Shown here piece after piece: positions 849 to 42,282 of a DNA stretch of 64,000 nucleotides. The translations under genes were made by a program, and so were the position numbers. Numbering within the stretch: position 1 is the first letter of the stretch; each line of letters opens with the position of its first letter. Source of the stretch: Crocinitomicaceae bacterium (GTDB lineage Bacteria > Bacteroidota > Bacteroidia > Flavobacteriales_D > Crocinitomicaceae); the NCBI GenBank assembly GCA_022447665.1, contig JAKVAQ010000020.1:7707-71706 (forward strand), written 5' to 3'. Below the pieces are notes generated by a model. It saw only the letters and a program-made list of their open reading frames with translations. It had not been told where the DNA came from and did not search any database.

Positions 849-850
849 AA

Positions 851-874
851 ATGACGGGATAAAGTTCCCGTCAT
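851..874. terminator. Hairpin between convergent genes
   Basis: A perfect 9-bp stem ATGACGGGA / TCCCGTCAT (851-859 and 866-874) with a 6-nt loop lies 2 bases after the deacetylase stop and 8 bases before the end of the convergent gene. The T-tract is weak on both sides, so a shared bidirectional terminator is inferred mainly from position. Confidence 0.55.
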
Positions 875-882
875 ATTTCTAA

Positions 883-2609: not shown

Positions 2610-2618
2610 AATTAAATT

Positions 2619-3008
2619 TTATTCCTCAAAATGCAACATCCATTTAGCTGTCGCTGTGTTATCCTCTTCGTCTGTTACGGAAAAATGCACCCAACGTGCC
2701 ATCATAGCACTATCAGGGACCGTAAAGTGTTCGTGAAGGTGATGATCTTTACCTTCTATTGATCCAGAAACCACCCAGTTAAAAGTCATATCAAATTCTC
2801 CATTTGAATCACCGATCATAACCATATACGATTTTAGACCTCTATTGTCTTTAAATTCTGCATCGAGATGAATCATTTCTCCCCATTTAAAAGTTGAGTG
2901 CTCTGCAGGAGTCTCAACAGTAATTTTTGGGGATTTACTATCCTTTAAACAGGAAGTTATTCCAATGGCAGCGAATAAAATCACCGCCATATATTTTAGA
3001 TTTTTCAT
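2619..3008 (-). CDS. DUF4625-like lipoprotein
   Basis: 129 residues from the ATG at 3008. A Met nine codons further upstream exists, but the one chosen places a Lys-containing n-region (MKNLKYM) before the hydrophobic core and the lipobox ITSC. The rest looks like a single Ig-like beta-sandwich (KITVETPAEHSTFKWGE at its start). A His-rich stretch (DHHLHEHF) sits in the middle and could bind metal. Function unknown. It is first in the minus-strand set with the MbnP-like protein and the barrel. Confidence 0.6.
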   Translation of the reverse strand: MKNLKYMAVILFAAIGITSCLKDSKSPKITVETPAEHSTFKWGEMIHLDAEFKDNRGLKSYMVMIGDSNGEFDMTFNWVVSGSIEGKDHHLHEHFTVPDSAMMARWVHFSVTDEEDNTATAKWMLHFEE

Positions 3009-3101
3009 TATTCTAAGTTGATGGTTTAGCCCCATCTATTTAAGGTGCTAAACTCCATTAATAAAACGTAAAAATTGGGTTATTAGTTTGGTACTATGGT
3101 T

Positions 3102-19964: not shown

Positions 19965-19979
19965 TCTTTAGCTGAGAGT

Positions 19980-20414
19980 CTATTTTTTAAATCCAATTAA
20001 TACTACTAAACAACCAGACACTTTTTTGTCAATGTCCAGATATGCCTCAACGTAGCAATCTAAAGTGTTGTCTATTTTAAAATCCCAATAAGGCTCATTG
20101 TTGAAATCCTTATTTGTAAAAAGTAAGTTTCTGTCTTGGTCATAAACGTTGAAGATCACATAATTATCCTTCGTTCCTGCAGTAGAAGCAATTCTGTAGA
20201 CAGAACCACCGTAGAAGGTCACCTTGAACTCTGCGGATTGATCTGCATCTACAAAAGCTTTATAAACCTGTCCATCAGAAATAAATGATTCACCTTTTTG
20301 CACATCAGCAGAAAGGTAATCATAACATATATTCACTAATGAATCACATTCTTGTGCTTTAGATCCAAATGCTGACAACGCAATAAATGCTGTTAAGAGT
20401 AATGCTTTTTTCAT
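19980..20414 (-). CDS. Exported protein of unknown function
   Basis: 144 residues with a signal peptide (cleavage near SKAQE) and a compact beta-rich domain with four cysteines in the mature part. The C-terminal strand (VSGCLVVLIGFKK) is hydrophobic but not a membrane helix. No family recognised. It lies between the lipoprotein gene and the ABC transporter gene, so it may serve the transporter. Confidence 0.6.
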   Translation of the reverse strand: MKKALLLTAFIALSAFGSKAQECDSLVNICYDYLSADVQKGESFISDGQVYKAFVDADQSAEFKVTFYGGSVYRIASTAGTKDNYVIFNVYDQDRNLLFTNKDFNNEPYWDFKIDNTLDCYVEAYLDIDKKVSGCLVVLIGFKK

Positions 20415-20416
20415 GT

Positions 20417-21331
20417 TTAACCTATAAGATCCTCTCTAATTAATTTAATTTTCTCAATGATCGCTGTAAGCACCCCTTCTTCCGCGTTCACAGAAGATTT
20501 ACTCTTTATCTGTGTCATTTTATTATTAGGATCATGAATTGGTTCAATGTACTGATAGTTGAATGTCATTTTATCGAACTCCATTTTTAAGTCCTTTAAT
20601 TCTGCGATTAGTTGAGAATAATACTCATCTGAGTTATAGTCTTCTAGCAGAGATATTATCGTTTTAAGACCAGTTTTTTGTTCTCCGATTCTATTGGCTA
20701 TTTCTTGGTCTTCCGTTGCTTCATAGGTTCTTGCAGCAAAATGCAACGACTCAATCCAACCTCCAGTTAAAATCAATGTTGCTACATCATGTTGTTCATT
20801 ATCTTTAAGAAACTTATCACCTTCTCGATAGCCTTCGGACATGATTACGAGCATAGAATCTTGGTTATTGCCATTCTCTATAAACCGCTCAAGTAATCCT
20901 TCATCAAAAGCTCCTGCAATACCCAATTCGTCTGATAATTTTTCAACCGAGCTCAAATACGAAACAGCTTTTGCATTGTTTTCATAAATCGTAGCATAAC
21001 CTAAGTCTGCACCATAAATACCCATGTTAATAGCACGTTTGAAAGTAGTTGTGAAGTTTCCAACATTCTCTGGGTTTGTTAGATTTCCTTCATCGTAAGT
21101 ATCTACTTCGTTCTTAATCAAGGTTGCCATTTGAATCGGAGAAGGAATGCTAAACATTTTCCCGTTTATAGCTGTGTTCAATGATTGTGCTGAATCTAAG
21201 ACTTCATCTCGAATAACCGTCAATTCGCTGTCTTCTGATTGAGAGTTGTCTCCATCAGAATCTCCACCGCAGCTGAAGAAGATAAGGGGGGCTCCAGCAA
21301 AGAAGAAGATTGGTAAGAACCTTTTTATCAT
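20417..21331 (-). CDS. Lipoprotein of unknown function
   Basis: 304 residues. The lipobox FFSC at about residue 20 is followed by an acidic linker and then an all-helical domain with a conserved-looking opening IPSPIQMATLIK and INMGIYGADLGYATIY. Proteins of this type are frequent in Bacteroidetes and have no assigned function. First gene of the probable operon with the ABC transporter. Confidence 0.6.
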   Translation of the reverse strand: MIKRFLPIFFFAGAPLIFFSCGGDSDGDNSQSEDSELTVIRDEVLDSAQSLNTAINGKMFSIPSPIQMATLIKNEVDTYDEGNLTNPENVGNFTTTFKRAINMGIYGADLGYATIYENNAKAVSYLSSVEKLSDELGIAGAFDEGLLERFIENGNNQDSMLVIMSEGYREGDKFLKDNEQHDVATLILTGGWIESLHFAARTYEATEDQEIANRIGEQKTGLKTIISLLEDYNSDEYYSQLIAELKDLKMEFDKMTFNYQYIEPIHDPNNKMTQIKSKSSVNAEEGVLTAIIEKIKLIREDLIG

Positions 21332-26781: not shown

Positions 26782-29049
26782 ATGGCATTTGATATTGATA
26801 TGATAAAGGAGGTGTACTCAAGGTACCCTTCAAGAATTGCGAAAGCAAGAGAGATCCTTAATAAACCTCTAACGCTTTCAGAGAAAATTTTATACACGCA
26901 CTTATGGGATGGTGATGCCACTGAGGCGTTTGAACGTGGTAAGGCGTATGTGGATTTTGATCCAGATAGAGTAGCCATGCAAGACGCTACTGCCCAAATG
27001 GCTCTGCTGCAATTTATGCAAGCAGGTAAGAAAAAAGTGGCCGTTCCATCAACTGTGCATTGTGATCACTTAATACAAGCAAAAATAGGAGCGGATAAAG
27101 ATTTGCAGAATGCTCTTAATACGAGTTCAGAGGTTTTTAATTTTCTAGAGTCTGTTTCAGATAAATATGGAATAGGATTTTGGAAGCCAGGTGCAGGGAT
27201 TATACATCAAGTAGTTTTGGAGAACTATGCTTTTCCAGGAGGAATGATGATTGGTACTGATTCGCATACGGTAAATGCCGGGGGGTTAGGAATGGTTGCC
27301 ATAGGAGTAGGGGGAGCTGACGCGGTAGATGTTATGGCTGGTATGCCTTGGGAACTTAAATTTCCTAAGCTAATCGGTGTTAAACTAACAGGTAAATTAA
27401 ATGGATGGACAGCGCCTAAAGACGTAATTCTGAAGGTTGCTGAAATTCTTACTGTAAAAGGTGGAACTGGTTGTATTGTTGAATATTTCGGCGATGGTGC
27501 TACCTCTATGTCTTGTACAGGTAAAGGAACCATTTGTAATATGGGTGCAGAGATAGGGGCAACTACTTCAACTTTTGGATACGATGATTCTATGCGCAGG
27601 TATTTAAACGCTACAGATAGAGTAGACATCGTTGAGGCAGCAGATCAAGTTGCAGAGCACCTGACTGGTGATCCTGAGGTATATGCTAATCCGGAAAAAT
27701 ATTTCGATCAAGTAATTGAAATTAACTTGGATACCCTAATCCCTCACTTAAATGGTCCATTTACTCCAGATTTAGCTACTAAAGTCGGTACAATGACTGA
27801 TAAAGCGATTGAAAATGGATGGCCTTTAGATGTTCAATGGGGGTTAATTGGTTCTTGTACGAACTCTTCTTATGAAGATCTCTCGAGAGCGGCTTCAATA
27901 GCGAAACAAGCACTCGAAAAAGGACTAGAAACTAAGGCGAAGTTCGGTATCAACCCAGGATCAGAACAAGTAAGGTTTACAGCTGAAAGAGATGGGTTAT
28001 TAAAGATTTTTCAAGATTTGGACGCAACTATTTTTACCAATGCTTGTGGTCCGTGTATAGGGCAATGGGCTAGATATCAAGACCCTAAGAATGCGCCAAA
28101 AAACAGTATTGTACACTCGTTTAATAGAAACTTTGCAAAGCGTGCTGATGGAAACCCGAATACTCATGCATTTGTTTGTTCGCCAGAAATTGTTGCAGCC
28201 ATTGCTATCTCAGGACGATTAGATTTTAATCCGATTAAAGATTCTTTAGTGAATAAAAATGGAGAAGAGGTTCGTTTTGATCCACCAACAGGAATTGAAC
28301 TTCCAACAAAAGGATTTGATGTTGAGGACAATGGTTATGAAGAGCCAGCTGAAGACGGAAGCAATATTGAAGTGAAAGTAAATCCAGATTCAGAAAGACT
28401 ACAGTTGTTAACACCTTTCCCTGCTTGGGACGGTAAGAATATTTCTGGGGCGAAACTTCTAATCAAAGCTTATGGGAAATGTACTACTGACCATATTTCT
28501 ATGGCGGGTCCATGGTTAAAGTATAGAGGTCATTTGGATAATATTTCGAATAACTGTTTGATTGGAGCTGTGAACGCATTTGGTAAACAAACCAACGAGG
28601 TAGTGAATCAATTAACGGGAGAGAAGTCAGAGGTTCCTGCTACTGCAAGAGCTTATCAGGCGGCCGGCGTTCCTAGTATCGTTGTTGGTGATCACAACTA
28701 TGGTGAAGGTTCTTCTCGAGAACACGCAGCAATGGAACCAAGGCATTTAGGTGTAATAGCAGTTATTGTTAAATCATTTGCCCGAATTCACGAAACTAAC
28801 CTTAAGAAACAAGGTATGCTTGGTTTAACATTTGCTAATGAGAATGACTATGATAAGATTCTTGAGGATGATACTTTCGATTTTGTTGATCTTGAAAGTT
28901 TTGCTGCAGGCAAACAGTTAACGCTATTAGTGAAACATGCTGATGATAGTTCTGATGAATTCAAATTGAACCATACCTATAACGAGGCCCAAATAGATTG
29001 GTTTAGAGCGGGATCAGCGTTGAACTTAATTCGTACTCAGAATAACTAA
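26782..29049 (+). CDS. Aconitate hydratase, mitochondrial-type
   Basis: 755 residues, the length and domain order of mitochondrial-type aconitase: three alpha/beta domains holding the cluster, then the swivelling C-terminal domain. Cluster cysteines are in [10 protein letters not shown] and [11 protein letters not shown]; substrate residues include [11 protein letters not shown] and, in the swivel domain, the [10 protein letters not shown] motif. Same reaction as AcnB but a different aconitase branch. It has its own leader after the acnB terminator, so the two can be regulated separately. Confidence 0.95.
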
Positions 29050-29068
29050 TCAAAAGATATTTATCTTT

Positions 29069-29098
29069 AATCCCGGTTCATGCAGGATCGGGATTTTT
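29069..29098 (+). terminator. Probable terminator after second aconitase
   Basis: 7-bp stem AATCCCG / CGGGATT with a 13-base loop followed by five T. Confidence 0.6.
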
Positions 29099-29106
29099 AA
29101 TATATC

Positions 29107-29937
29107 ATGGAATCATTTTATTTATTTGAAGCAGGCTCTTCAAAGACAACTTTAGCCGATTGTTCAACCGAAGGGGTTTTAAAGATTGATCTTCCAGGTG
29201 TAAATCCCAATCGCAGTGTTGAAGAGTTTAAAGCAGCTTTACAGAGGGTATTTCATCCTAAAAATGATAAGCCTGTGTTTTTTTATGGTAGTGGCTTAGC
29301 CTCGCATGAAAACAAAGCTATAATTATTTCATTGTTCGATCAATGGAATATAAAGAGCATAGAAGTATTCGATGATTTATTAGGTGCAGCAAGGGCGCTA
29401 TATTCTGATGAAGCTGGTATAATGGCAATATTAGGTACGGGAGGCATTAGTGCCTATTATAATGGTAGGTCAATTGTAGAAAGAAGAGGAGGGTATGGCT
29501 TTCTTATCGATGATTTAGGAGGAGGTTATGAACTGGGAAAGGTAATTATAGCAGCTTGGTTAAACAATGATTTAAATTCTGATTTAGCTCACAGAATTCA
29601 GGAGTATTTCGGTGTAAAAAAAGAGGAGTTTACTTCATGGTATTATCAAAGAAAGAACTTAAAGCTTGTTTCGGACCTTGTGCCGTTAATTGCGGATTAT
29701 AAAGAAACTAAGGAAACACGTGAGCTTTTGCTCACTTATTTCAAGAGATTCATGCATAAAAACATACTCCCCTTAGTTGAAAAGCATAACATGAAAAGCA
29801 TTAAGTTGTCTGGTTCTATAGGCAATGCTTTTGCTGATTTGATAACCAGTGTTTTAGAAGCTGAAGGGTTGGCGTGTGAGGAGATAATAAGTTTTCCAAA
29901 GGACCGATTAATAGCTTATCACAGGAGAAAACCCTAA
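29107..29937 (+). CDS. N-acetylglucosamine kinase-like (BadF/BadG family) protein
   Basis: 276 residues of the ASKHA kinase fold. A first phosphate-type loop is EAGSSKTTLADCS, a second is AILGTGGISAYYNG, and the DLGGGYELGK motif matches GlcNAc kinases of the BadF/BadG/BcrA/BcrD group. Probably phosphorylates an amino sugar in cell-wall recycling. It is shorter at the N terminus than typical members but has both phosphate loops. Stands alone after a terminator. Confidence 0.8.
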   Translation: MESFYLFEAGSSKTTLADCSTEGVLKIDLPGVNPNRSVEEFKAALQRVFHPKNDKPVFFYGSGLASHENKAIIISLFDQWNIKSIEVFDDLLGAARALYSDEAGIMAILGTGGISAYYNGRSIVERRGGYGFLIDDLGGGYELGKVIIAAWLNNDLNSDLAHRIQEYFGVKKEEFTSWYYQRKNLKLVSDLVPLIADYKETKETRELLLTYFKRFMHKNILPLVEKHNMKSIKLSGSIGNAFADLITSVLEAEGLACEEIISFPKDRLIAYHRRKP

Positions 29938-30055
29938 GAATCTTATCCGTCATGCTAAAGAAAAGATTAGTCTAAAAATATCAACGATTCGTAGAAATTA
30001 AAGAAGCCTATTGGATTTAAATTCGGATATTTAGAGTAACCAATCAAGGAAATTT

Positions 30056-30454
30056 ATGAATCCGTTAAGAATCCAAGCAACAGCTAAAACTCCAGAGGTT
30101 TTGTTGGATCCTTCGAACAATATCTTCGAGATTAAAGGTAAGTCTGTACCGGAAGATGCTGATGCGTTTTATAACCTTATTTTAAAATGGTTTGACGACT
30201 ATGTTGTACAACCAAACGAGTCTACATTATTAAGGGTAGATTTAGAGTATTTCAATATTTCATCTTCGAAAAGATTATTGTTTCTGTTGTATAAGTTGAA
30301 TGAGCTTCAAGCGAGAGGTGCTGATGTGAAAATTCAATGGTTCTACAGTGAAGCAGATGAGGACATGTTCGAAGTAGGTCAAGACTATGCATTTATGGTT
30401 AAAATTCCTTTCCAATTTGTTGAAAGAGAAGCTGAACTAGAACTTGCTAGTTAA
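30056..30454 (+). CDS. SiaC-family regulatory phosphoprotein (DUF1987)
   Basis: 132 residues matching the SiaC/DUF1987 family: MNPLRIQATAKTPEVLLDP at the N terminus and the central YFNISSSKRLLFLLYKL. In Pseudomonas, SiaC is phosphorylated by SiaB, dephosphorylated by the PP2C phosphatase SiaA, and activates a diguanylate cyclase. From memory, the phosphorylated residue there is a Thr in YFNTSS; here that position is Ile68, with Ser69-71 next to it. No SiaB or SiaD is adjacent; the PP2C protein at 4318 is the only candidate partner in the window. Confidence 0.85.
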   Translation: MNPLRIQATAKTPEVLLDPSNNIFEIKGKSVPEDADAFYNLILKWFDDYVVQPNESTLLRVDLEYFNISSSKRLLFLLYKLNELQARGADVKIQWFYSEADEDMFEVGQDYAFMVKIPFQFVEREAELELAS

Positions 30455-30475
30455 AGCTTAATACATAGATATTTG

Positions 30476-30500
30476 AAGGCGGCCATTGGTCGCCTTTTTT
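30476..30500 (+). terminator. Rho-independent terminator after siaC-like gene
   Basis: Stem AAGGCGGCC / GGTCGCCTT (one G-U pair), ATT loop, six-T tract. Confidence 0.9.
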
Positions 30501-30575
30501 GTTAAAAAAAATTAAGATATTTCTTTAATTCAAAACAAAGGCCGTTGTTTGAATACGGCTTTCAATATATTCTTG

Positions 30576-30583
30576 TAATTTTG
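30576..30583 (+). promoter_or_regulatory. -7 promoter box for OmpH-like gene
   Basis: TAATTTTG fits TAnnTTTG; a TTTG lies 24 bases further upstream (30548-30551), slightly farther than the usual gap of about 20. Confidence 0.4.
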
Positions 30584-30611
30584 GCGGCTGTTAAATGTTT
30601 AAATAAACAAA

Positions 30612-31277
30612 ATGCAAAACAACAATTCTTTGGCAAAAATCTCATTGGCAATCAACGCACTTCTAGTTATTGCGGTAATTATTCTATTTACGCGTGGAGG
30701 AGGAAGTAGTGATTCATCGCAAGTAAATGAAGGTGATTCAACAACACAACAAGTGGTAATGCCTAATGACGGTGAGTTAAGAATTGGTTATTTCAATACC
30801 GATTCTTTAAATAGCCAACTTTTTATGATAAAAGATTTAGAGCAAGAAATGGCTGATGCTCAAAAAAATGCTGAAGATAAAATGCAAAAGGAGCAAAGTA
30901 AAATTGACAGCTGGAATAAGAAATGGGAGGCAAGAATGCCTTTATTATCGGGAGAGCAAGAAGTTTACCAAAGAGAAATGCAAAAAATGCAACAGGATGC
31001 TATGATGGCCGAGCAATCAATTCAAATGGAACTTGCACAGTCCCAAGAAATGATCATGTTTAGTCACATTCAAAGAATTTCGAATTTCACAAAGATTTAT
31101 GCAGAAAAGAATGGATTTGATATGATTATGTCTTACCAAATTGGTCAAAATCCTATCTACATTCACCCAAGTATGGATGTTACTGCAGGTGTGGTTAAGT
31201 TAATGAACGATGATTACAATAGCATGTTCACCAGCGATCCTGGTATGGATGCTGAAGAACCTGTAGTAGAAGAGTAG
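30612..31277 (+). CDS. OmpH/Skp-family protein
   Basis: 221 residues: N-terminal hydrophobic segment (about 10-26) serving as signal or anchor, an acidic/Ser linker, then the Skp-like core with a long coiled coil (about 75-165) between short beta strands (RIGYFNTDSLN at the start, YAEKNGFDMIMSYQI after the coil). Skp/OmpH proteins chaperone outer-membrane proteins in the periplasm. The hydrophobic segment is not followed by a clear cleavage site, so it may stay membrane-anchored. Followed by the DUF4924 gene after 11 bases. Confidence 0.75.
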   Translation: MQNNNSLAKISLAINALLVIAVIILFTRGGGSSDSSQVNEGDSTTQQVVMPNDGELRIGYFNTDSLNSQLFMIKDLEQEMADAQKNAEDKMQKEQSKIDSWNKKWEARMPLLSGEQEVYQREMQKMQQDAMMAEQSIQMELAQSQEMIMFSHIQRISNFTKIYAEKNGFDMIMSYQIGQNPIYIHPSMDVTAGVVKLMNDDYNSMFTSDPGMDAEEPVVEE

Positions 31278-31288
31278 TAAACCTAGTA

Positions 31289-31840
31289 ATGTTAGTTGCT
31301 AAAAGAACAAAAGAAACGAACATAGCGGAACATGTAATTTATATGTTCCAAATTGAAGATTTGATCAGGGCCAATAATTTTGACCTTGAAACAATCACCC
31401 ATCAAATAATATTACCTCAAGTACAAGATGATGCGCTTATAGAAGAATATAAGCTTTGGTATACCGGATTCATCAAGGAAATGAAAAATAGAAAGCTTGA
31501 GGAAAAAGGGCACCTTCAGGAAGTTGAAGAAGTTTTAATGGAGCTCCTAATGCTACATAATACCTTGCTCAATATTGTACAGGATAAAGAATATGCCGAG
31601 GCATACGAATCGGCTTTGCCTGCAATAAAAGAACTTCAGTTCAAAAGTAATTCAAGTAACCTAAATGTTGTTGAAGTTGCTTTGAATGCTATGTACGGTA
31701 AATTACTTTTAAAGCTCAAAAAACAACCTATTTCTAAAAGTTCTGAAGAAGCTTTCTCTCAGATAGCCAAAATGTTAGCTAACTTAGCATTGAGTTATAA
31801 TAAAATGAGAAAGGGTGAACTAAATTTCACCAAAAACTAG
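31289..31840 (+). CDS. DUF4924 family protein
   Basis: 183 residues, helical and cytoplasmic, matching the DUF4924 pattern (MLVAKRTKETNIAEHVIYMF at the start, SNLNVVEVALNAMYGKLLLKL later). Function unknown in the family. In an apparent operon: OmpH-like gene 11 bases upstream, acyltransferase 22 bases downstream. Confidence 0.75.
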   Translation: MLVAKRTKETNIAEHVIYMFQIEDLIRANNFDLETITHQIILPQVQDDALIEEYKLWYTGFIKEMKNRKLEEKGHLQEVEEVLMELLMLHNTLLNIVQDKEYAEAYESALPAIKELQFKSNSSNLNVVEVALNAMYGKLLLKLKKQPISKSSEEAFSQIAKMLANLALSYNKMRKGELNFTKN

Positions 31841-31862
31841 ACTTGTTTACAACAGTAGAATT

Positions 31863-32807
31863 ATGAATCGCTTTTTCTATTACGTTCTAGCCATTCCTTT
31901 TTCACGTTTACCCATGGGCGTGCTCTACTTTTTTGGAAGTATATTTTATTTCTTCCTTTGTAATATAACGCCTTACCGCAAAAAAGTAATTGACGCCAAC
32001 TTAAAGTCTTCTTTTCCAGATAAGTCTGATCAGGAAATCAAAGCATTAAGAAAATCTTTCTACCGATATTTTTCAAATTTATTTGTAGAGTCATTAAAGC
32101 TGCTTACGATAAAAGAAAAAAATCTTCTAGAGAGGATTAAAGTCAATAATCCTGAAGTCCTTGAACATCTTTATCAGAAGAATAAAGGGGTAGTGCTCAT
32201 TTCTTCGCATTTAAATAATTGGGAATACTTAATATTAGCACAAGATTTATTATTTAACTACCAAGCTTTCGGAATTGGTATGCCGCTTACAAATAAGTTT
32301 TGGAACCAAAAGCTTAATGAGCGTCGTGAGCGTTTTGGTATGATTGTTACAAATGCCGGGAATTACAAGGAAAAACTAGCCATGAATCAACGAGGACCTT
32401 CGGCTACGCTAGTGCTTAACGATCAGAGTCCTGGAAAAGAAGAGAATTGTTATTGGACGAATTTTCTTAATCAAGAAACTGCATTTTTCTTTGGTGCAGA
32501 GGTGATGGCCAACCAACTTGATCATGCTGTTGTTTATGCTGAGCTGGAACGTGTCAAAAGAGGTTATTACCAACTAGAATTAACGGTCATAACAGACGAT
32601 CCTCATAAGGAAGAATATGGCTTTATTACTTCTAAGTATGTTGAATTACTAGAGAAGGGTATTCTAAAGCAACCAGAAGTATGGTTATGGTCTCATAAAC
32701 GTTGGAAAAAAACAGTTCCTACGAATCTTGATGCCCTTAAAGAGAATCACAAAGAAAGATTTAATAAACGTTTTAGAGCTGGATCAAGCCTTAGGGAAAC
32801 CGCTTAA
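31863..32807 (+). CDS. Lipid A biosynthesis-type acyltransferase
   Basis: 314 residues of the LpxL/HtrB lysophospholipid acyltransferase family: N-terminal membrane segment, then the catalytic SSHLNNWEY (H-x4-E) and the later NDQSPGKEENCYWTNFL substrate region. It transfers acyl chains onto lipid A or aminolipids at the inner membrane. The 3' end overlaps the convergent DinB gene by 24 bases. Confidence 0.85.
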   Translation: MNRFFYYVLAIPFSRLPMGVLYFFGSIFYFFLCNITPYRKKVIDANLKSSFPDKSDQEIKALRKSFYRYFSNLFVESLKLLTIKEKNLLERIKVNNPEVLEHLYQKNKGVVLISSHLNNWEYLILAQDLLFNYQAFGIGMPLTNKFWNQKLNERRERFGMIVTNAGNYKEKLAMNQRGPSATLVLNDQSPGKEENCYWTNFLNQETAFFFGAEVMANQLDHAVVYAELERVKRGYYQLELTVITDDPHKEEYGFITSKYVELLEKGILKQPEVWLWSHKRWKKTVPTNLDALKENHKERFNKRFRAGSSLRETA

Positions 32808-33371
32808 ATTCTTCACTTTTTTTGCTTGTTCAATGTGTCTCTCAATATGGTAACTCATATAAACAAGAGCATCACCAAGATTTAGCTTCACAACAGGTCT
32901 AAGCGACAAGGGACATTTGGTCTTTCTAAGATTTATCTGCGTCGCCTCTTCAATAACATCATCAAAAGCAAGTTGATGCTCTAGAAACTCAGCGACAGCA
33001 TTATCTGTCATTAGTGCTTCGTTCACCAGAGGATTGTACTCTTTCGGAGACTTGAGCTTACGCTTCACATTTTTTACCTTACCAAGTTTCACAGATCTAT
33101 ACACAGCTACTCCTAAAGGACTACTATTAAAATAATCTACTGGTTCACGAAATCGAGAGTTCGAAATCTTTCCTTTAAAAACAGGCAAATAATAGCGGAA
33201 ATAGGCGTTTAAATGCTCTAGGCATTGGCCAATACTCCATGATTTGTCATTGGGTTGCCACTCAAGTTGAGTCTTAGATAAATTTGAGAAATTATCGCGC
33301 ACATCTTGTGCTGAAAGAGCACTCATGCTTTTCAATTTTTCCTTTAAATCAGAAAGTGCGATTCTTTTCAT
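32784..33371 (-). CDS. DinB-family protein
   Basis: 195 residues of the DinB four-helix-bundle fold. Candidate metal ligands are the His in SIGQCLEHLNAYF and the HxxxH in YMSYHIERHIEQ. Members include mycothiol- and bacillithiol-dependent transferases, but most are unassigned. Convergent with, and overlapping, the acyltransferase. Confidence 0.75.
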   Translation of the reverse strand: MKRIALSDLKEKLKSMSALSAQDVRDNFSNLSKTQLEWQPNDKSWSIGQCLEHLNAYFRYYLPVFKGKISNSRFREPVDYFNSSPLGVAVYRSVKLGKVKNVKRKLKSPKEYNPLVNEALMTDNAVAEFLEHQLAFDDVIEEATQINLRKTKCPLSLRPVVKLNLGDALVYMSYHIERHIEQAKKVKNLSGFPKA

Positions 33372-33496
33372 TGAAATTAATTAGACTTCTATAATTACCA
33401 AGTAGCTTTATTTTTCTCGCCCAATATGTAACAAACCTACAAACAATATGGTAAATATAAACTAACTTTAACTAGAAAATAACAGGACAATTCTGA

Positions 33497-36400
33497 ATGG
33501 CAGGACCTAAAAAATTCGGGACCTTTGCGGGTGTTTTTACCCCATCAATTCTAACTATTCTGGGGGTAATTATGTACCTCAGAATGGGCTGGGTTGTAGG
33601 TAATTCTGGTGTAATCACGGTATTGATTATTATCGGGCTTGCACATGTTATTTCAGTTTCTACAGGTTTAAGTATTTCATCAATTGCTACAGATAAAAAA
33701 GTAGGTGCGGGTGGAGTTTATTATGTGCTTTCCAGAAGTTTAGGGTTACCCATAGGTGGTGCGCTTGGCTTGGCTTTATTCGCGGCTACAGCATTTAGTA
33801 TAGCCCTTTATATGGTAGGGTTTGCTGAAATTTTCAATGAATATATTTCCTTCGGAGATTTTGGAGTAAATGGTGAGTTTATTAATGACCCGAATAACAT
33901 CAGAATTACAGCAAGTTTAGGTTTACTTATTCTGACTGTAATTGCTTTCATAAGTACTTCAATTGCGCTAAAAACTCAGTTTTTTATACTTGCTGTAATT
34001 GTACTTTCCTTATTCTCCATATTTTTAGGTGATCCGGCTAATGTAACTGTATTTGAGGTTGCGGATGGAGTAGAAACACCACGCGCAGGCTTTGCCGCTA
34101 TCTTTGCCATCTTCTTCCCCGCAGTTACAGGTTTTACTGCTGGTGTGGCAATGTCAGGAGATCTAAAAGACCCTAAAAAAAGTATTCCAGTAGGTACGAT
34201 GGGTTCAATAGCTGTGGGGCTCATTATTTACACGGTTTTAGCGTTATTTCTTGCTTATTCTTTAGACCCGGAAACTTTAATTAATAATCCGAAGGCGATC
34301 GTAGAAATGGCGGCCATTGGACTTCTTGTTTATATAGGAGTTTGGGGTGCAACATTATCTTCTGCTTTAGGAGGCATACTTGGAGGACCAAGGATTCTTC
34401 AGGCCATGTCTATAGATAAGATTACACCGAAGATTTTTGCAAAGGGGGTAGGGAAAGACAATGAGCCAAGAAATGCACTCATTTTAACGGTAATAATAGC
34501 AGAGGTAGGTATTTTAATTGGAGATTTGAACGTTATTGCAGAAATAGTGTCCATGTTCTATTTGGCCGCGTATGGTTTTATAAATATCTCTTTCTTTCTT
34601 GAAAGTTGGGCCAGTGCAGATTTTAAACCAACGTTCAAAGTACGTAAATGGATAGGTTTACTTGGTTTTATCGCCACCTTCGCTATTATGTCTCAATTGA
34701 ACATGATGGCAATGATTGCTGCCTTTATAATTATCGGTGGTATATATTTCTACCTTTCAAGAAAGCAAATAAGCTTAGGAACTGGAGACATTTGGCAATC
34801 CGTATGGTCCACCATAGTTAAGAAAGGACTTAAGAGAATGGAGGAGGGGACAGACCATAAAAGAAACTGGAAACCAAATATGCTTCTATTCAGTGGTCTA
34901 ACGGAGTACAGATCCCAAATGATAGAGTTTTCCAAAGCGATTTCGGGGCAATATGGAATTGTTACAAATTTTGATTTAGACGAGAATCCCGAGGCTACTG
35001 TTTTATTTCCTAAAAACAAACAAAGCGTAGATGACGACGAGTTAGAGAAATATGGAATCTTTGGAAGAAAGTTAGAAGTTCAAAACGCATTTAAGGGAAT
35101 AGAAAGTATTGCTTGTACTTTCGGTTTTTCTGGAGTTGAGCCGAATACGGTATTAATGGCCTGGCCGGGTGAAACCAAAGATGTGAAGTGGTTCACCAGT
35201 ATGACCCAAAAATTGATGGATCTAGATTATAACATTTTATATCTGGATTACGATAAACGTTGGGGCTTTAGAAAAAAGCAATCTATTGATTTATGGTGGA
35301 GAGGAATGGGATCGGATGCGGAACTTATGCTAATGATTGCCAAATTTATTGCGAATTCACCAGAATGGTCCCAAGCTCAGATTAGAATACTCGTAGTCAA
35401 TGACACTAATGTCAATCATCAACTAATTGAAACGCGCATAAATAATCTTCTTGACCTATTCAGAGTAAGGGCCGCTATAAAGATTTTAAATAACGAGGTA
35501 GATAAAAAGCCGCTATATGAGTTGATGAAGACTTATTCGCAGGATGCCGATCTTGTTATAGCAGGTGTTCCAGAGATAGCTGAAAATGAAGCAGGAAGAT
35601 TCGTTTCTAATACGAACGAGCTTGTTGGTACTATTGGAACTACATTATTAGTACGCGCATCAAGCCAGTTTGATGAAGCCGATTTGAGTTTTGAAAAAAT
35701 CCAATTAGGGGAGACTGATACGGAAGATCTTCAAAAAGGAGTTATCCCGCTAGAGTTCGATATAGAAAATGAATTATCTCAACGTTTTCATAAGTTGGAT
35801 ACAGATTTAGAGACTGCGGCTAGTGAACTTCTAAACAATGGAGTAGATCCTCTTCAATCATTTCATCATGATTTATTGGCAAGGGTAACCAAACGAATAG
35901 ATGAAAGTCTTGATCAAGCATCCAAATTTGAATCAAAAGAAAAAGTACTCGAATTTCTTTCTGCAGAACTCTTTGAGTTAAATGAATTTTATACGAATAG
36001 AATCATTCATCAGCTAGAGGAGGTTTGTCAGCTCTTCGCAACAGCCATGGATTCTTATATTTTCTCAAAAGAGAATCTAATTCATAATGTAGAGCGGAAA
36101 ATAAAACTGCAAAGTACCATTGATCAGGATGGTAACCTGGTTCCTGTAAAACAAAAGGTACGCTATAAAAATGCTATGCACAGGGTATGGCTGAGCGAAG
36201 GAATCACAGAGGCCTATGATGAGTTTTTGAAATTAGGTTACAATAGTTTTCTCATTATCCATCAATCCAAGAATATACTCCACAGAACAATTTGGGATCT
36301 ATTGCATGAAAATTGGGATGATGATATTGCTCAAAAATTGAGTCAAGAAAAATCAATATTTGAGCAAGCCCTTGAAGAAATCGACAAGAATACACTTCAA

Positions 36401-38533
36401 TTGTCTAAGTCATTCTATATCAGTCTTAGAAATAAGGAGAGGGAGAATATTAGAGAGTTAGTAAACCTTTTAAGCCAAAAAGGATATCAAAGAAAGATTG
36501 AAGAACGTTTTCCTCTAATGTCAAATAAGAAGATAGAAGAGGGGCGCCAAAACATTTCAAACTTCCCAGCTCACCTATTTAGAAATTCTATTTTCTTCAC
36601 GTATCATTTACAAGCAGACTTGTCGTTACTGGCGTTTTCCATGCAAACAAGTCAACTTTTCATTGATCTGGAACATCAATGGAAAAGAGATCTAGAAGAT
36701 ACTTTAATTAAGGAGTTTGATATTGCTCAACAGTATACCAATGATTTGATTGCTTTGGTTAATCAAAATAAATCAAAAGAAATTGGGGCGTATCAAATAG
36801 AAAGACAGGCTGAACTTATTATAGACTTTTCAAAAGATATCAATGAATTAACAAAGTCTGCTATTCAAAATTTAAAACCGATTCCAGAGGCCATTGAATT
36901 AATTTCGGCCAGTTCGCTCAACGAAATTAGAGAAATTCAAAATGAATCTGTAGCTACCGAAGAGGTAAAGCTGAATGATATATCTGAATTCTTATTCCAG
37001 ACGAAGCTCCTAGAGCCACTGAACACCCAGTTAAAGAATTATGAAAGTCAAATAAGACGTCATTATAACTTGTTATTGAGTCAAATGGCAACCCTTCAAA
37101 AGAATTTGAATGACTTTGTCCTTTCACAAGACGCAGAAAGTTTATCTCCCATTTTAAATGAAATGTCGAACACTTTAGCCGATGGAAAGGAACAAATGTT
37201 AGGATCGTTGAATGGAGCTTACGGAGAGCTAAGGATTAAACGTGAAGAGATAAGACAAGAGTTTGATATCAACAATATTATAGAGCAAGTTGAAGGATTG
37301 CACGCCTTTGTTAAAGAAAATAAAGGAACTCAAGGAATCATAAAAAGCCTTCAAAAATCCGTAGATTTTATTAATGCATCATATTCAAAGGCTTATGATT
37401 ATGTTGCTAATCAGCGTAAAGAGAAAACAAGTCTTGAATACGTCAGAAAACATAGCCATTTAATTTCCGAACAGGACGTCATCGCCGGATTCATGGAGAG
37501 GATTCAACCGATTGAACTAGTACCATATTCTTACCGACAAATTTTTGGTGAAGGATATTATCTGGATGAAAAGACATTTAGTATCAGACAGCGAGAAGTA
37601 AATATGGTTCAAAAAGGAATAGCAAGAATTGAAGCTGGGTCCAAAGGGGCTATTCTTGTATTGGGTAGTGCTGGATCTGGTAAATCTGCGTTTACTGACT
37701 TTATTGCTAATGGTATCATTAACAATAAACCTTTTTACATAGCACCTGGCTCAGTTGGTAGCAACGGAGCTTTACTTGAGGCTTTTAAACGAGGTACTTC
37801 GGAAACAGGAACCATAAAACAAATCCTTAATGGGCTTCCAGAGAAATCTGTATTTATTTTCAACGATCTTGAACAATGGGTAGTAAGGTCTTCAAACCTC
37901 TATCAAAACTATTCAAAACTTGCTTCTATTGTCAAGGAGTTCTCTCAAAGGCATTATTTCATATTCAATGCTAACATCCATGCATATACGTTAATTCGCA
38001 ACAATACCGATTTTGCCAGCGCAATTATATCTACTACCATCTTACCTCAAATTAATCAAAGTGAGCTAGTAGAAATTATTCGTCAAAGACATCATGATTC
38101 TGGAATGAGAATCGAATACGAAGGAACATTGGAACATTTTATTAAAGAAGGTAAGCTCAATAAAATTATTGGTTCCATTGTTTCACCAGCTAAGGGTAAT
38201 ATCGGTTCAGCTTTGAGTCTTTGGTTGGCGAGCATTGAAGGTAAGGTTGATAACGACTTAGTCATTCAAAAGAAAGCGGGAATTGAATTCCCTTTTATTA
38301 AGGATATAGAACTACAAAATCTAATCTATCACTTATTTATTTTTAAATCAATTAATAAAAAAGACTTGGTGAAGGTATATGGACCTGAATATCAAATGTG
38401 GATTGATAGATGGGTTGAAGCATTGTTAAATGTGAATTTATTGGAGTGGAATAAGAACGGTAACTTGGAAATAGCTTCAGTTGCGCGTCCGTTTATAGAA
38501 AAGTGGTTAAATGAGTTGGGGTATACAGCATAG
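33497..38533 (+). CDS. SLC12-like cotransporter fused to coiled-coil and P-loop NTPase
   Basis: 1678 residues. Residues 1-430 form an amino acid-polyamine-organocation transporter core of the cation-chloride cotransporter (SLC12) type, with the opening FAGVFTPSILTILGVIMYLR and about twelve helices. Residues 455-740 form an SLC12-type soluble C-terminal domain (RNWKPNMLLFSGL, DLVIAGVPE). Residues 740-1370 are long, highly charged helices with no recognised domain. Residues 1370-1678 contain a P-loop NTPase: Walker A GSAGSGKS at 1390-1397, Walker B-like VFIFNDLE at 1452-1459, followed by a winged-helix-like tail ending SVARPFIEKWLNELGY. Bacterial SLC12 proteins usually end near 740. The frame is unbroken, so the fusion is real at sequence level. 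The next gene overlaps its 3' end by 23 bases. Confidence 0.8.
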   Translation: MAGPKKFGTFAGVFTPSILTILGVIMYLRMGWVVGNSGVITVLIIIGLAHVISVSTGLSISSIATDKKVGAGGVYYVLSRSLGLPIGGALGLALFAATAFSIALYMVGFAEIFNEYISFGDFGVNGEFINDPNNIRITASLGLLILTVIAFISTSIALKTQFFILAVIVLSLFSIFLGDPANVTVFEVADGVETPRAGFAAIFAIFFPAVTGFTAGVAMSGDLKDPKKSIPVGTMGSIAVGLIIYTVLALFLAYSLDPETLINNPKAIVEMAAIGLLVYIGVWGATLSSALGGILGGPRILQAMSIDKITPKIFAKGVGKDNEPRNALILTVIIAEVGILIGDLNVIAEIVSMFYLAAYGFINISFFLESWASADFKPTFKVRKWIGLLGFIATFAIMSQLNMMAMIAAFIIIGGIYFYLSRKQISLGTGDIWQSVWSTIVKKGLKRMEEGTDHKRNWKPNMLLFSGLTEYRSQMIEFSKAISGQYGIVTNFDLDENPEATVLFPKNKQSVDDDELEKYGIFGRKLEVQNAFKGIESIACTFGFSGVEPNTVLMAWPGETKDVKWFTSMTQKLMDLDYNILYLDYDKRWGFRKKQSIDLWWRGMGSDAELMLMIAKFIANSPEWSQAQIRILVVNDTNVNHQLIETRINNLLDLFRVRAAIKILNNEVDKKPLYELMKTYSQDADLVIAGVPEIAENEAGRFVSNTNELVGTIGTTLLVRASSQFDEADLSFEKIQLGETDTEDLQKGVIPLEFDIENELSQRFHKLDTDLETAASELLNNGVDPLQSFHHDLLARVTKRIDESLDQASKFESKEKVLEFLSAELFELNEFYTNRIIHQLEEVCQLFATAMDSYIFSKENLIHNVERKIKLQSTIDQDGNLVPVKQKVRYKNAMHRVWLSEGITEAYDEFLKLGYNSFLIIHQSKNILHRTIWDLLHENWDDDIAQKLSQEKSIFEQALEEIDKNTLQLSKSFYISLRNKERENIRELVNLLSQKGYQRKIEERFPLMSNKKIEEGRQNISNFPAHLFRNSIFFTYHLQADLSLLAFSMQTSQLFIDLEHQWKRDLEDTLIKEFDIAQQYTNDLIALVNQNKSKEIGAYQIERQAELIIDFSKDINELTKSAIQNLKPIPEAIELISASSLNEIREIQNESVATEEVKLNDISEFLFQTKLLEPLNTQLKNYESQIRRHYNLLLSQMATLQKNLNDFVLSQDAESLSPILNEMSNTLADGKEQMLGSLNGAYGELRIKREEIRQEFDINNIIEQVEGLHAFVKENKGTQGIIKSLQKSVDFINASYSKAYDYVANQRKEKTSLEYVRKHSHLISEQDVIAGFMERIQPIELVPYSYRQIFGEGYYLDEKTFSIRQREVNMVQKGIARIEAGSKGAILVLGSAGSGKSAFTDFIANGIINNKPFYIAPGSVGSNGALLEAFKRGTSETGTIKQILNGLPEKSVFIFNDLEQWVVRSSNLYQNYSKLASIVKEFSQRHYFIFNANIHAYTLIRNNTDFASAIISTTILPQINQSELVEIIRQRHHDSGMRIEYEGTLEHFIKEGKLNKIIGSIVSPAKGNIGSALSLWLASIEGKVDNDLVIQKKAGIEFPFIKDIELQNLIYHLFIFKSINKKDLVKVYGPEYQMWIDRWVEALLNVNLLEWNKNGNLEIASVARPFIEKWLNELGYTA

Positions 38534-39299
38534 TGATCAAGAACCACGGATGGTTCCGGAGATATCAATTCCCAATGGGGTTGAAGTTCCTGATGCGCTC
38601 AATTTTGTAGAGTCATGGAGTATCGCGTGGCCTCTTTTTTGGATAATTATTGGCCTAGGAAGTTTAGCCTTCTTCTGGTTGATCAAAAACTTTGTTACAC
38701 TAAGAGTAAAATCACGCTTGCGAAAAAGAAAACTAGATAGATTGGTCTTTATCCTAGAAATTCTGACCTATAGTTTTGTTCTACTCTTTCTCTTATATGC
38801 CATACTGAGCTTCAATTTTATTGTGTTCGGAGCAATATTAATTCTGGTGCTATTCTTTTCTCATTCGCTGATTCTTAATTTCTTCTATGGGGTTGTATTT
38901 AAGTTGAAGAATGCGTTTACTATTGGAGATCAAATAGCAATTAATCAGGTTTCTGGCGAAATACAAGAGTTAAGAACTTTCGCAATGATCATTAATAATG
39001 AACATGATGATGTTGTTTATGTTCCTTACGCGAAGCTAAAAGATGAGATTCTTTTAAAACAACACTCACAAGGTAAAATTCAATCCATGACCATTACTCT
39101 AGAGATGGATAATGAGACTATACTAACTTTACAAGAGAATGGCATTAATTGGCTGAGTAATTGCCCATGGGTAATTGGTAGAGAAGGAATCAGTGTAAAG
39201 AAAAATTCCGATAATTCTATCTCGTTCTCGTTCCAAACCGTTAATATTGAGTTTAAGAGTCGAATTGTAGCTTTCCTTCAGAATAAACTTGAAAAATAA
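38511..39299 (+). CDS. MscS-like small-conductance channel
   Basis: 262 residues (or 249 from the ATG at 38550). Three membrane helices (about 38-60, 78-100, 102-130) lead into an MscS-type beta domain: NAFTIGDQIAINQVSGEIQE, then VVYVPYAKLKDEIL corresponding to the V-x-IPNS strand, and a C-terminal alpha/beta part. Mechanosensitive channels of this family release solutes on hypo-osmotic shock. The open frame starts inside the end of the cotransporter-NTPase gene, so expression is coupled; this suggests a joint ion or volume-control system. Confidence 0.7.
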   Translation: MSWGIQHSDQEPRMVPEISIPNGVEVPDALNFVESWSIAWPLFWIIIGLGSLAFFWLIKNFVTLRVKSRLRKRKLDRLVFILEILTYSFVLLFLLYAILSFNFIVFGAILILVLFFSHSLILNFFYGVVFKLKNAFTIGDQIAINQVSGEIQELRTFAMIINNEHDDVVYVPYAKLKDEILLKQHSQGKIQSMTITLEMDNETILTLQENGINWLSNCPWVIGREGISVKKNSDNSISFSFQTVNIEFKSRIVAFLQNKLEK

Positions 39300-39350
39300 T
39301 TTTGTAAGCGAATCTTTACATCTTCGTCTTAGATGCAAGAATTAACCTGA

Positions 39351-40682
39351 ATGAAGAAAGTAGTAATTATTGGAAATGGAATATCTGGCGTTACAGCGGC
39401 AAGACACATTCGAAAAAGATCTGATAATGAAATAACGATCATTTCTTCAGAAACCAAATACTTCTATTCACGAACGGCCTTAATGTACATCTACATGGGG
39501 CACGTGCGTGCTGAGGACACGAAGCCTTACGAAGATTGGTTTTGGGAAAAGAACAGAATTGATTTGGTTCAAGGCAGAGTTTTGGGAGTGAATTACAAAA
39601 ACAAAGAACTTCAGCTAAAATCAGGTAATTCTATTAATTACGATGACTTAATCATTGCAGTAGGTTCCAAGCCCAATAAGTTTGGTTGGCCTGGGCAGGA
39701 CTTAAACGGGGTTCAAGGATTATATTCTATGCAGGATTTAGAAACCCTTGAAGAAAACACTTCGAAAATAGATACAGCTGTAATTGTAGGTGGAGGTTTA
39801 ATTGGAGTAGAACTCGCTGAAATGCTGCATTCAAGAGGTAAGAAGGTCATTTTCTTAGTTAGAGAGAGCAAATTTTGGGGTAATGTTTTACCCGAACAAG
39901 AAGGAGAACTTATCTCTAGGCATATAACGGCTAATCATATTGATTTGAGGTTTAATACCGAATTAGCAGAAATTATTGATGATGGAAATGAATGGGTAAA
40001 AGCCATCAAAACGAGTAGCGGAGAAATTATAGAGTGCCAAATGGTGGGGCTTACAGCAGGTGTGTCTCCAAATATTGATTTTTTAAAGGAATCAGATCTG
40101 GAGATAAATAGAGGTGTAAAAGTCAATGATTTTTTAGAGACCAATATTGAAGGTGTATATGCTATTGGAGATTGTGCTGAGTTCATTACTCCAGTTGATG
40201 GCCGCAGAAACTTAGAGCAAGTTTGGTATACAGGTCGTATTATGGGGGAGACAGTGGCAGCGACCATTTGCGGTGAAAAAACTCCGTACACTCCAGGACC
40301 TTGGTTTAACTCTGCTAAGTTTTTTGAAATCGAATATCAAACATACGGTTGGGTTCATGCTGAGTTGAGAGAAAATGAAACCGACTTTTATTGGGAGCAT
40401 GAAAACGGTGAACGTTGTATTCATGTTGTATGGGATAAATCAAGCGGCGTTTTCCTTGGGTTAAATACCTTCGGAATTCGAATGAGGCATGAATTATTTA
40501 ACCAGTGGCTAAGAGATAAGGTGCAGGTTACTGAGGTGATGAAGAACTTGCGTATGGCAAATTTTAATCCTGAATTTTACGCGCACTATGAGAAAGAGAT
40601 TGTGGAGAAATTTAATGCTTCTACTGAATTCAATATTCAACTCGCTAAGGCAACTTGGTGGCAAAAACTCTTAAAGGCATAA
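39351..40682 (+). CDS. NAD(P)/FAD-dependent oxidoreductase
   Basis: 443 residues of the pyridine-nucleotide-disulfide fold. FAD motif IIGNGISGVTAARHIRK, NAD(P) motif VIVGGGLIGVELAEMLHSRG, and second FAD motif VYAIGDCAEF are all present. There is no CxxxxC redox disulfide, so it belongs with the ferredoxin/rubredoxin reductase or NirB-like group. The C-terminal 110 residues (from about FNSAKFFEIEYQTYGW) are an unusual extension. One base separates it from the polyferredoxin gene, its probable electron partner. Confidence 0.85.
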   Translation: MKKVVIIGNGISGVTAARHIRKRSDNEITIISSETKYFYSRTALMYIYMGHVRAEDTKPYEDWFWEKNRIDLVQGRVLGVNYKNKELQLKSGNSINYDDLIIAVGSKPNKFGWPGQDLNGVQGLYSMQDLETLEENTSKIDTAVIVGGGLIGVELAEMLHSRGKKVIFLVRESKFWGNVLPEQEGELISRHITANHIDLRFNTELAEIIDDGNEWVKAIKTSSGEIIECQMVGLTAGVSPNIDFLKESDLEINRGVKVNDFLETNIEGVYAIGDCAEFITPVDGRRNLEQVWYTGRIMGETVAATICGEKTPYTPGPWFNSAKFFEIEYQTYGWVHAELRENETDFYWEHENGERCIHVVWDKSSGVFLGLNTFGIRMRHELFNQWLRDKVQVTEVMKNLRMANFNPEFYAHYEKEIVEKFNASTEFNIQLAKATWWQKLLKA

Positions 40683-40683
40683 A

Positions 40684-42282
40684 ATGAAAAAAGTCAGGTT
40701 CATAGGGTTAGCCATATTTCTAATTGGATTATTGATATTTACGATTCTGCCATTTACTGGTTCTTATTCATTAAGTGAAAACGAATTTCAAGAAGTTTTA
40801 AAGCCAGAGGAATTTGCCCTTTTTGGTCAAGAGGTTACTGAGAATTTTTCGAATAAGAAATATGGTTTTAGTTGGCAGCTTACTTCAGATGTATTTACTA
40901 TTTACCACGAGAAAAATGATGCTCTTAGAGCTGTTGAAGCGTGGGATCAAGTGGTTTATTCTACGGAATCTGATTTAGGTTTAAGATTAGCTCGTGCTGC
41001 TCAAAAAGGACCAGTTTCATCGGATAAAGGGCTATTTCTCTTTTTAACTTTTGGGTTAGGAATAATAGGTTCGCTAATGTGGATTATTCCAGGATTGAAA
41101 ATTGATGGACCACCTGGAATTAAGAATACTGGCATCTATCACAACTCAGCTACGAACAGAGGTTGGATTGGAATCGTGACAGCTGTCTGGTTAGTGGGGT
41201 TTTATGTGGTCCTTTACTTTAAACCTTGGATAATCGCAGAAAATATTGCTGTTGTAGATCCTCTCAAAGGACTTTTCAAAGAGGGAGCAGAAGCATCTCA
41301 ATGGTTCTTGTACGGAATTCTATATGTTGTAGCCATGAGTGTTATGGGTATTCGTATGTACATTAAGTATCGTCATAACAAATACCAGATTGTTCGAACT
41401 ACTTCTGTATTATTCTTCCAAATCATATTTGCGTTTTTGTTAGTAGAGATTCTTCCGCTATTCGGATTACCGGGAAGAGATTTAAAGAATGCAATGCCAC
41501 TAGATTATACATTCTTGTACAAGTATAATGTTCAAGAATTATTAGATGCCGGAATGTTCGGTACTTTTCTTTTGATTTGGGGATTCGTACTCGCATTAAT
41601 TGTCGTTCCTACACTAGTTTATTTTTACGGGAAAAGATGGTACTGCTCATGGGTTTGTGGGTGTGGAGGATTAGCTGAAACGCTGGGTGACCCTTACAGG
41701 CAATTGTCCAACAAGAAATTGTGGGCTTGGAAAATGGAACGCTGGATGGTTCATGGTGTTCTTGTATTCGCCTTTATTTTAACGATTTGGGTGGGTTGGC
41801 ATTCCTACACAGCTATTACTGGCCCTGAGGGTGGTGACGGACAGTCATCAATTCTTGGATTGTCCGCCTATAATATTCGTGATTGGTATGGATTTTTAAT
41901 TGGTTCTATTTTTGCCGGTGTAATTGGTACTGGTTTTTATCCTTATTTCGGAAATAGAACCTGGTGTCGCTTTGGTTGTCCCTTGGCTGCATATATGGGA
42001 ATTGTTCAACGCTTTAAGTCGAGATTTAGGATTACTACAAATGGGGGCCAGTGTATTTCTTGTGGAAACTGCTCAACTTACTGCGAACAGGGGATTGATG
42101 TTAGGGCTTACGCTCAGAAAGGTGAGAATATTGTGCGTGCCTCATGCGTTGGTTGTGGTGTATGTTCTGCAGTCTGTCCTCGTGGTGTACTTAAGCTAGA
42201 AAATGGTCCTGAAGCAAAAAGATTTGGTAATGAAGATGGTCCAATAGTACTTGGAAATGATGGATTTAAATTGCTAAAATAG
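40684..42282 (+). CDS. Membrane polyferredoxin (NapH/CcoG-like)
   Basis: 532 residues: N-terminal membrane anchor and a soluble part, five or more further helices, conserved cytoplasmic Cys motifs between helices (YCSWVCGCGG and WCRFGCPLAAYMG), then two 4Fe-4S binding motifs (CISCGNCSTYC and CVGCGVCSAVCP). The layout matches NapH/NosR/CcoG-type electron-transfer proteins without the FMN domain of NosR. It likely passes electrons from the upstream oxidoreductase to or across the membrane; no terminal reductase is next to it. Confidence 0.8.
   Translation: MKKVRFIGLAIFLIGLLIFTILPFTGSYSLSENEFQEVLKPEEFALFGQEVTENFSNKKYGFSWQLTSDVFTIYHEKNDALRAVEAWDQVVYSTESDLGLRLARAAQKGPVSSDKGLFLFLTFGLGIIGSLMWIIPGLKIDGPPGIKNTGIYHNSATNRGWIGIVTAVWLVGFYVVLYFKPWIIAENIAVVDPLKGLFKEGAEASQWFLYGILYVVAMSVMGIRMYIKYRHNKYQIVRTTSVLFFQIIFAFLLVEILPLFGLPGRDLKNAMPLDYTFLYKYNVQELLDAGMFGTFLLIWGFVLALIVVPTLVYFYGKRWYCSWVCGCGGLAETLGDPYRQLSNKKLWAWKMERWMVHGVLVFAFILTIWVGWHSYTAITGPEGGDGQSSILGLSAYNIRDWYGFLIGSIFAGVIGTGFYPYFGNRTWCRFGCPLAAYMGIVQRFKSRFRITTNGGQCISCGNCSTYCEQGIDVRAYAQKGENIVRASCVGCGVCSAVCPRGVLKLENGPEAKRFGNEDGPIVLGNDGFKLLK

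Follow-up and report, generated by a model that had tools for sequence, protein, structure and literature searches.

A predicted NKCC-type cotransporter fused to an AAA+/STAND-type ATPase and paired with an MscS-like gene in Bacteroidota and other phyla

It has long been asked how cells sense their volume and relay it to Na-K-Cl cotransporters; in animals the signal passes through separate kinases. These proteins belong to the cation-chloride cotransporters (CCCs) of the SLC12 family (NKCC1, KCC; TCDB 2.A.30), whose known members, to our knowledge, stop after their C-terminal domain. In NKCC1 the side-chain ion ligands are Y383, T499, S613, S614 and Y686, and the gate is formed by R307 and E389 (PMC7889885); the C-terminal domain of a prokaryotic CCC, one of ordinary length, was solved by Warmuth et al. 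2009, as cited in that paper. Because the C-terminal domain of human KCC1 binds ATP and ADP (PMC8280820), nucleotide effects on CCCs have precedent, through a domain different from the one described below. Like the KTN/RCK (TrkA) proteins that control K+ channels and transporters (PMC2920069), the module that we describe would bind nucleotide in the cytoplasm and regulate ion transporters, but KTN/RCK has a Rossmann fold in place of a P-loop and lacks a mechanosensitive-channel-like partner.

The window analysed here (the whole stretch of 64,000 nucleotides from a Crocinitomicaceae bacterium) carries on its plus strand a single uninterrupted frame, from the ATG at 33497 to the stop at 38533, that encodes 1678 aa, and so bears out the initial annotation of one unbroken frame holding a transporter and about 940 extra residues. 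Sequence comparison confirms the predicted layout of 33497-38533 as a CCC (residues 1-735, 33497..35701), about 600 residues of amphipathic helices (residues 736-1335, 35702..37501) and a C-terminal P-loop ATPase domain of the AAA+/STAND type with a winged helix (residues 1336-1678, 37502..38530), all on the plus strand. A frameshift, an assembly chimera and a chance frame are each ruled out, because fused frames of similar length (~1630-1750 aa) are found repeatedly across many independent assemblies. The earlier reading as transporter, linker and NTPase therefore stands as far as anatomy is concerned, but it overlooked the MscS-like gene, which is translationally coupled, the fusions to exchangers and the losses in both directions that are described below.

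Residues 1-735 match NKCC1, KCC and NCC chains of the PDB in phmmer searches (human NKCC1 and KCC at E ~1e-73 to ~1e-76), the Pfam family AA_permease (E 1e-47) and the SLC12 C-terminal domain PF03522 (28.4 bits, cut-off 27), all in agreement with the previous view of residues 1-740 as a complete SLC12-type transporter with its soluble tail. On a simple scale this part contains 11 hydrophobic TM segments, and from near residue 450 on it has a cytoplasmic domain of the SLC12 type. An alignment with NKCC1, read against the ion ligands listed in PMC7889885, located the ion-site residues. At the side-chain ligand positions for Na+ (S288, S289), K+ (Y105, T211) and Cl- (Y359) the residues are identical to those of NKCC1, the pair R29-E111 equals the NKCC1 gate pair, and all of the NKCC1 Na+, K+ and Cl- side-chain ligands and gate residues that were checked are kept in 68/68 fused CCC domains; the backbone-contact positions of TM1 diverge from NKCC1 (T20 for N298, L22 for W300). 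Given this identity of ligands and gate pair across the fused domains, the transporter is predicted to be of the NKCC type. With SLC12 CCCs it shares the TM fold, the SLC12-type C-terminal domain, the ion ligands and the extracellular gate pair, and it differs from them in running ~940 residues further with an ATPase and in being coupled to an MscS-like gene. Prokaryotic CCCs of ordinary length (700-800 aa, e.g. L020, L021, L124) are of the same transporter family but come without the ATPase and without the MscS-like neighbour.

The long charged helical stretch noticed earlier between transporter and P-loop is supported by both composition and periodicity: residues 736-1335 have no TM or hydrophobic segment, 28% charged residues and 4% proline plus glycine, and their helical hydrophobic moment reaches z 6.3 against shuffled sequence. 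When the two non-transporter parts were searched separately with HMMs, as had been proposed, the helical region gave no match to Pfam, NCBIfam or PDB except helical bundles (weak profile matches) and weak chance hits, and the C-terminal part gave AAA+ and winged-helix matches. A profile of the C-terminal region (38 rows) hits AAA+ ATPases with solved structures (ClpC, E 1.4e-6; Hsp104; Cdc6, 3e-4). Its tail, corresponding to the winged-helix-like C-terminal end (~residues 1600-1678, 38294..38530), matches MarR-like winged helices (2d1h, E 1e-4) and 4mnu (2.8e-4), and two members match Pfam MarR there. Together with a Walker A motif GSAGSGKS (residues 1390-1397, 37664..37687) and a Walker B-like segment VFIFNDLEQW (residues 1452-1461, 37850..37879), these matches agree with the proposed AAA/STAND-like P-loop NTPase with a winged-helix end. 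AAA_16 is matched by 32/38 members and AAA_22 by 19/38 (E 0.01); the window domain itself reaches 24.6 bits against the AAA_16 cut-off of 32.6, and two relatives exceed the AAA_22 cut-off of 27 (L086, 29.0 bits; L082, 32.5 bits). Since it falls under the Pfam cut-offs, the window domain is, judged by its sequence, AAA+/STAND-like but outside the named families, and comparisons with Pfam, NCBIfam and PADLOC returned no known annotated family for the fusion. The P-loop, hhhhDxE, a lid-like GNxGxALxxW and the terminal winged helix are shared with AAA+/STAND ATPases that carry a winged helix (AAA_16, AAA_22, ORC/Cdc6, nSTAND), whereas the window domain reaches the cut-off of none of these families and is fused to a transporter and paired with an MscS-like protein. 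Among CCC-fused members a Walker A of the form G-x4-GK[ST] is present in 54/61 and an acidic residue at 1459 (Walker B) in 59/61; both motifs are intact in 52/61, compared with 3/23 of the other ATPase relatives tested. Walker A or B is degenerate in ~11-15% of CCC-fused members, and many relatives that are not CCC-fused read GSGR or worse at Walker A.

The gene that follows encodes an MscS-like protein of 262 aa (38511..39299, plus strand), whose ATG at 38511 overlaps the fused frame by 23 bases, with an alternative internal ATG possible at 38550. It matches Pfam MS_channel_2nd (35.0 bits, cut-off 20.2), and its AF2 model (pLDDT 88) shows three long TM helices with beta and alpha/beta domains, for which Foldseek returns YnaI, MscK and MscS (E ~1e-10). 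The partner thus resembles the MscS family in fold, beta domain and full-length Foldseek match, and departs from it in its nearly constant ATPase companion and in having no Ala/Gly-rich TM3 pore helix (mean A+G 0.16 in CCC-linked partners versus 0.46 in E. coli MscS). Beside standalone ATPases, where most MscS-like proteins are canonical, the TM3 value is 0.31, compared with 0.16 in CCC- and exchanger-linked proteins (p 7e-7, relatedness ignored). The partner is thus MscS by fold but not by pore helix, and because the Ala/Gly-rich packing of TM3 is missing, tension gating is not assured.

To quantify the pairing we used the 63 fused loci with room downstream, a few of which are present in duplicate, drawn from two collections (L015/L127, L090/L200, L117/L159). 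The MscS-like gene lies directly downstream in 55/63 of these, compared with 0/27 unfused CCC relatives, mostly at a spacing of -32 to +14 bases. Of the eight fused loci in which it is not adjacent, two (L148, L172) sit on short metagenome (MAG) contigs, and a third, L135, is a frameshifted copy with an MscS-like gene still behind it. In 4/5 of the remaining exceptional genomes a gene of the same type (238-258 aa) occurs elsewhere (E 1e-57 to 1e-68); in the fifth, G766, no dedicated MscS-like partner was found in the genome. For losses at the genome level PF03522 proved unfit as a CCC marker: some genomes with an evident CCC escaped it as well, and the CCC protein itself was used as the query. 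Three genomes that retain the CCC and lack the ATPase (G553, G645, G559) have only background AAA+ hits and only generic MscS genes. Conversely, in G013 and G251 the ATPase and the MscS-like gene are adjacent and there is no match to the CCC, and the ATPase of G013 sits within the CCC-fused clade of the ATPase tree. These losses in both directions indicate that the ATPase and the MscS-like protein travel together and that the CCC is separable. The pairwise distances of the two proteins also correlate after the CCC distance is removed (partial r 0.43, 0/2000 permutations as high), in a test limited by saturation. Since the neighbouring MscS-like gene goes with the ATPase instead of with the CCC, we reject a function tied to the CCC alone.

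A CCC-domain tree, built quickly and with many weakly resolved forks, fits a fusion that was gained a single time and lost about four times, most extensively in a marine clade of Flavobacteriaceae with Maribacter, Lutibacter and Winogradskyella; G553 and G645 are of this kind, and G559 comes from elsewhere. Fused members are found in assemblies of Bacteroidota, Chlorobi, Ignavibacteria, Marinimicrobia, Calditrichota and Gemmatimonadota, with other phyla represented by single assemblies, some of which may be mis-binned, and the fusion appears to be ancient. The survey of genomes for fused and split versions that the initial annotation had called for finds the fusion in many independent assemblies, and both unfused CCCs and standalone ATPases exist. 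Between the window and L127 the CCC is 75% identical, the helical region 29%, the ATPase 37% and the MscS-like protein 25%, so that in this pair the last three parts diverge far faster than the CCC.

Across the phylum the ATPase occurs in four settings: fused to a CCC, standing alone, in exchanger fusions of ~1500 aa, and as a protein of 750-830 aa beside a separate exchanger. The CCC-fused setting and the standalone setting of ~1000 aa both come with the MscS-like protein. The exchanger-like fusions (11-15 TM, ~1500 aa) lie at L081:3186-7691, L082:3396-7883, L083:3055-7551 and L084:1968-6464. In L081-L083 a Na_H_Exchanger domain is fused to the ATPase module, and the operon also holds an MscS-like gene and TrkH (the TrkH gene of L081 was left out of the scan); L084, whose N-terminus receives no Pfam call, shares this operon layout; all four have an upstream multi-TM protein of 414-422 aa, without a Pfam match in the two that were scanned (L083, L084). 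At L085:2789-10772 an operon combines TrkA, TrkH, an 11-TM domain (no family assigned) fused to the ATPase, and an MscS-like gene. The shorter ATPases (749-808 aa) adjoin a separate Na+/H+ exchanger-like gene, confirmed by Pfam in L098, L099 and L108 and recognised by length and TM count in L120; a short protein of 2-3 TM is also present at these four loci, MscS-like in L098 and L108 and unrecognised in L099 and L120. Standalone ATPases of ~1000-1300 aa stand beside canonical MscS channels in L086, L087, L089, L094-L097, L101 and L106. Because many standalone ATPases have a degenerate Walker A (GSGR, GNGN), some of them may be pseudo-ATPases. Two proteins of ~1700 aa with weak ATPase hits (L103, L104) were dropped as members, L104 being a kinase-AAA_16-GAF-cyclase protein. 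In a simple history, a pair of ATPase and MscS channel would have been recruited to transporters, and the channel-like protein would then have lost its pore character.

We propose that the locus would encode a two-gene salt-transport complex, in which the transporter part would act as an NKCC-type Na+/K+/2Cl- symporter and the AAA+/STAND-type ATPase, on its long helical arm, would work with the MscS-like protein from the next gene. The two would form a regulatory unit whose MscS-like part would sense membrane tension, turgor or ionic strength and whose P-loop would sense nucleotide state, and which would switch transport by the CCC part on and off; relatives carry this unit on different ion transporters, namely Na+/H+ exchangers next to TrkH. 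From the fused architecture, the intact ion sites (68/68), the pairing (55/63), the intact Walker A and B (52/61), the shared retention and loss of ATPase and MscS-like protein, and the reuse of the module in exchanger fusions, which serve as Rosetta-stone evidence, we infer a physical complex, ATP-dependent switching and osmotic control. Control of transport by nucleotide through the attached NTPase, as had been suggested for this protein, is plausible. Several points speak against such a complex: the module evolves unusually fast for a switch under tight constraint, the pore helix is changed, Walker A or B is degenerate in ~11-15% of CCC-fused members, and no dedicated partner is seen in G766. 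On balance, we consider it marginally probable that ATPase and MscS-like protein act together as a regulatory complex, gating the attached NKCC-type transport by osmotic or nucleotide state. The broader proposal is more tentative and may well not hold: that a portable unit of AAA+/STAND ATPase and MscS-like protein, on NKCC-type CCCs, on Na+/H+ exchangers and in TrkH operons, places secondary transport under the direct control of nucleotide state together with membrane tension or ionic strength, a protein derived from MscS having changed from channel into sensor or regulator.

The association of ATPase and MscS-like protein is also compatible with a structural or assembly role, in which an MscS-like ring and a helical and ATPase layer would cluster transporter dimers and nucleotide would serve assembly and not osmotic gating. 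The MscS-like protein still has the beta and alpha/beta domains from which, on the cytoplasmic side, the MscS oligomer is built, its CCC- and exchanger-linked forms lack the Ala/Gly-rich pore helix (A+G 0.16 vs 0.31, p 7e-7), and the helical region is long and evolves fast. However, most CCC-fused members keep their Walker motifs, and the ATPase and MscS-like unit survives without the CCC in G013, which argues for a role beyond organising the CCC transporter; we regard a mainly scaffolding or assembly role as rather unlikely. The ATPase could instead read cytoplasmic ATP/ADP and throttle transport by energy charge, with the MscS-like protein as a separate, physically uncoupled relief channel of low conductance for volume control. 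The binding of ATP/ADP by the C-terminal domain of human KCC1 (PMC8280820) lends this a precedent, and ordinary co-expression in an operon could explain the adjacency, but shared loss and retention independent of the CCC, relocation instead of loss of the MscS-like gene in the exceptions, and correlated divergence tie the ATPase to its partner, whose pore helix is moreover not of the channel type. We therefore judge this explanation improbable.

STAND/AAA_16 domains with a winged helix are common in conflict and defence systems, and the resemblance of the ATPase to them, together with the fast evolution of the module, would suit a defence switch with the transporter or channel as its effector. 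PADLOC left the proteins of the window unmatched, the module and the MscS-like gene included, and gave weak chance hits only, in two relatives; the inheritance is vertical with few losses, the synteny within the family is conserved and of a housekeeping kind, and the fused effector would be an intact transporter, so that this reading is disfavoured and very improbable. Just as improbable is a fusion without functional consequence, in which an ATPase gene became joined to that of a transporter and the two products are uncoupled. Although the CCC works without the module in the Flavobacteriaceae that lost it, a single gain has been kept across several phyla in constant domain order, the MscS-like partner is conserved, and the same module was fused independently to exchangers.

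If the regulatory complex is correct, a bacterial lineage appears to have its switch within the transporter chain and tied to a relative of mechanosensitive channels. The locus points to an undescribed machine in which cell pressure or energy state would be coupled to the uptake of salt, and to a portable module by which many Bacteroidota would regulate ion homeostasis. In keeping with the initial remark that the architecture had no known description, none was found for the fusion or the ATPase module in the literature searched, with preprints and subscription journals outside the search. The fusion is carried by named isolates (Mangrovivirga, Marinigracilibium, Agaribacillus, Fulvivirga and Plebeiobacterium), and the idea is thus directly testable.

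Around the fused gene, positions 26782-42282 of the window hold, in order, aconitase, a BadF-like kinase, OmpH-like and LpxL-like genes, DinB (minus strand), the fused gene, the MscS-like gene, an FAD oxidoreductase and a 4Fe-4S membrane protein. This gene order looks alike in L015, L016 and L017, with all names except DinB read by eye. On a contig labelled SAR324 (L189), four more MscS-like genes lie near the fused locus (829-3018, 6456-7370, 18724-19578 and 19575-21134).
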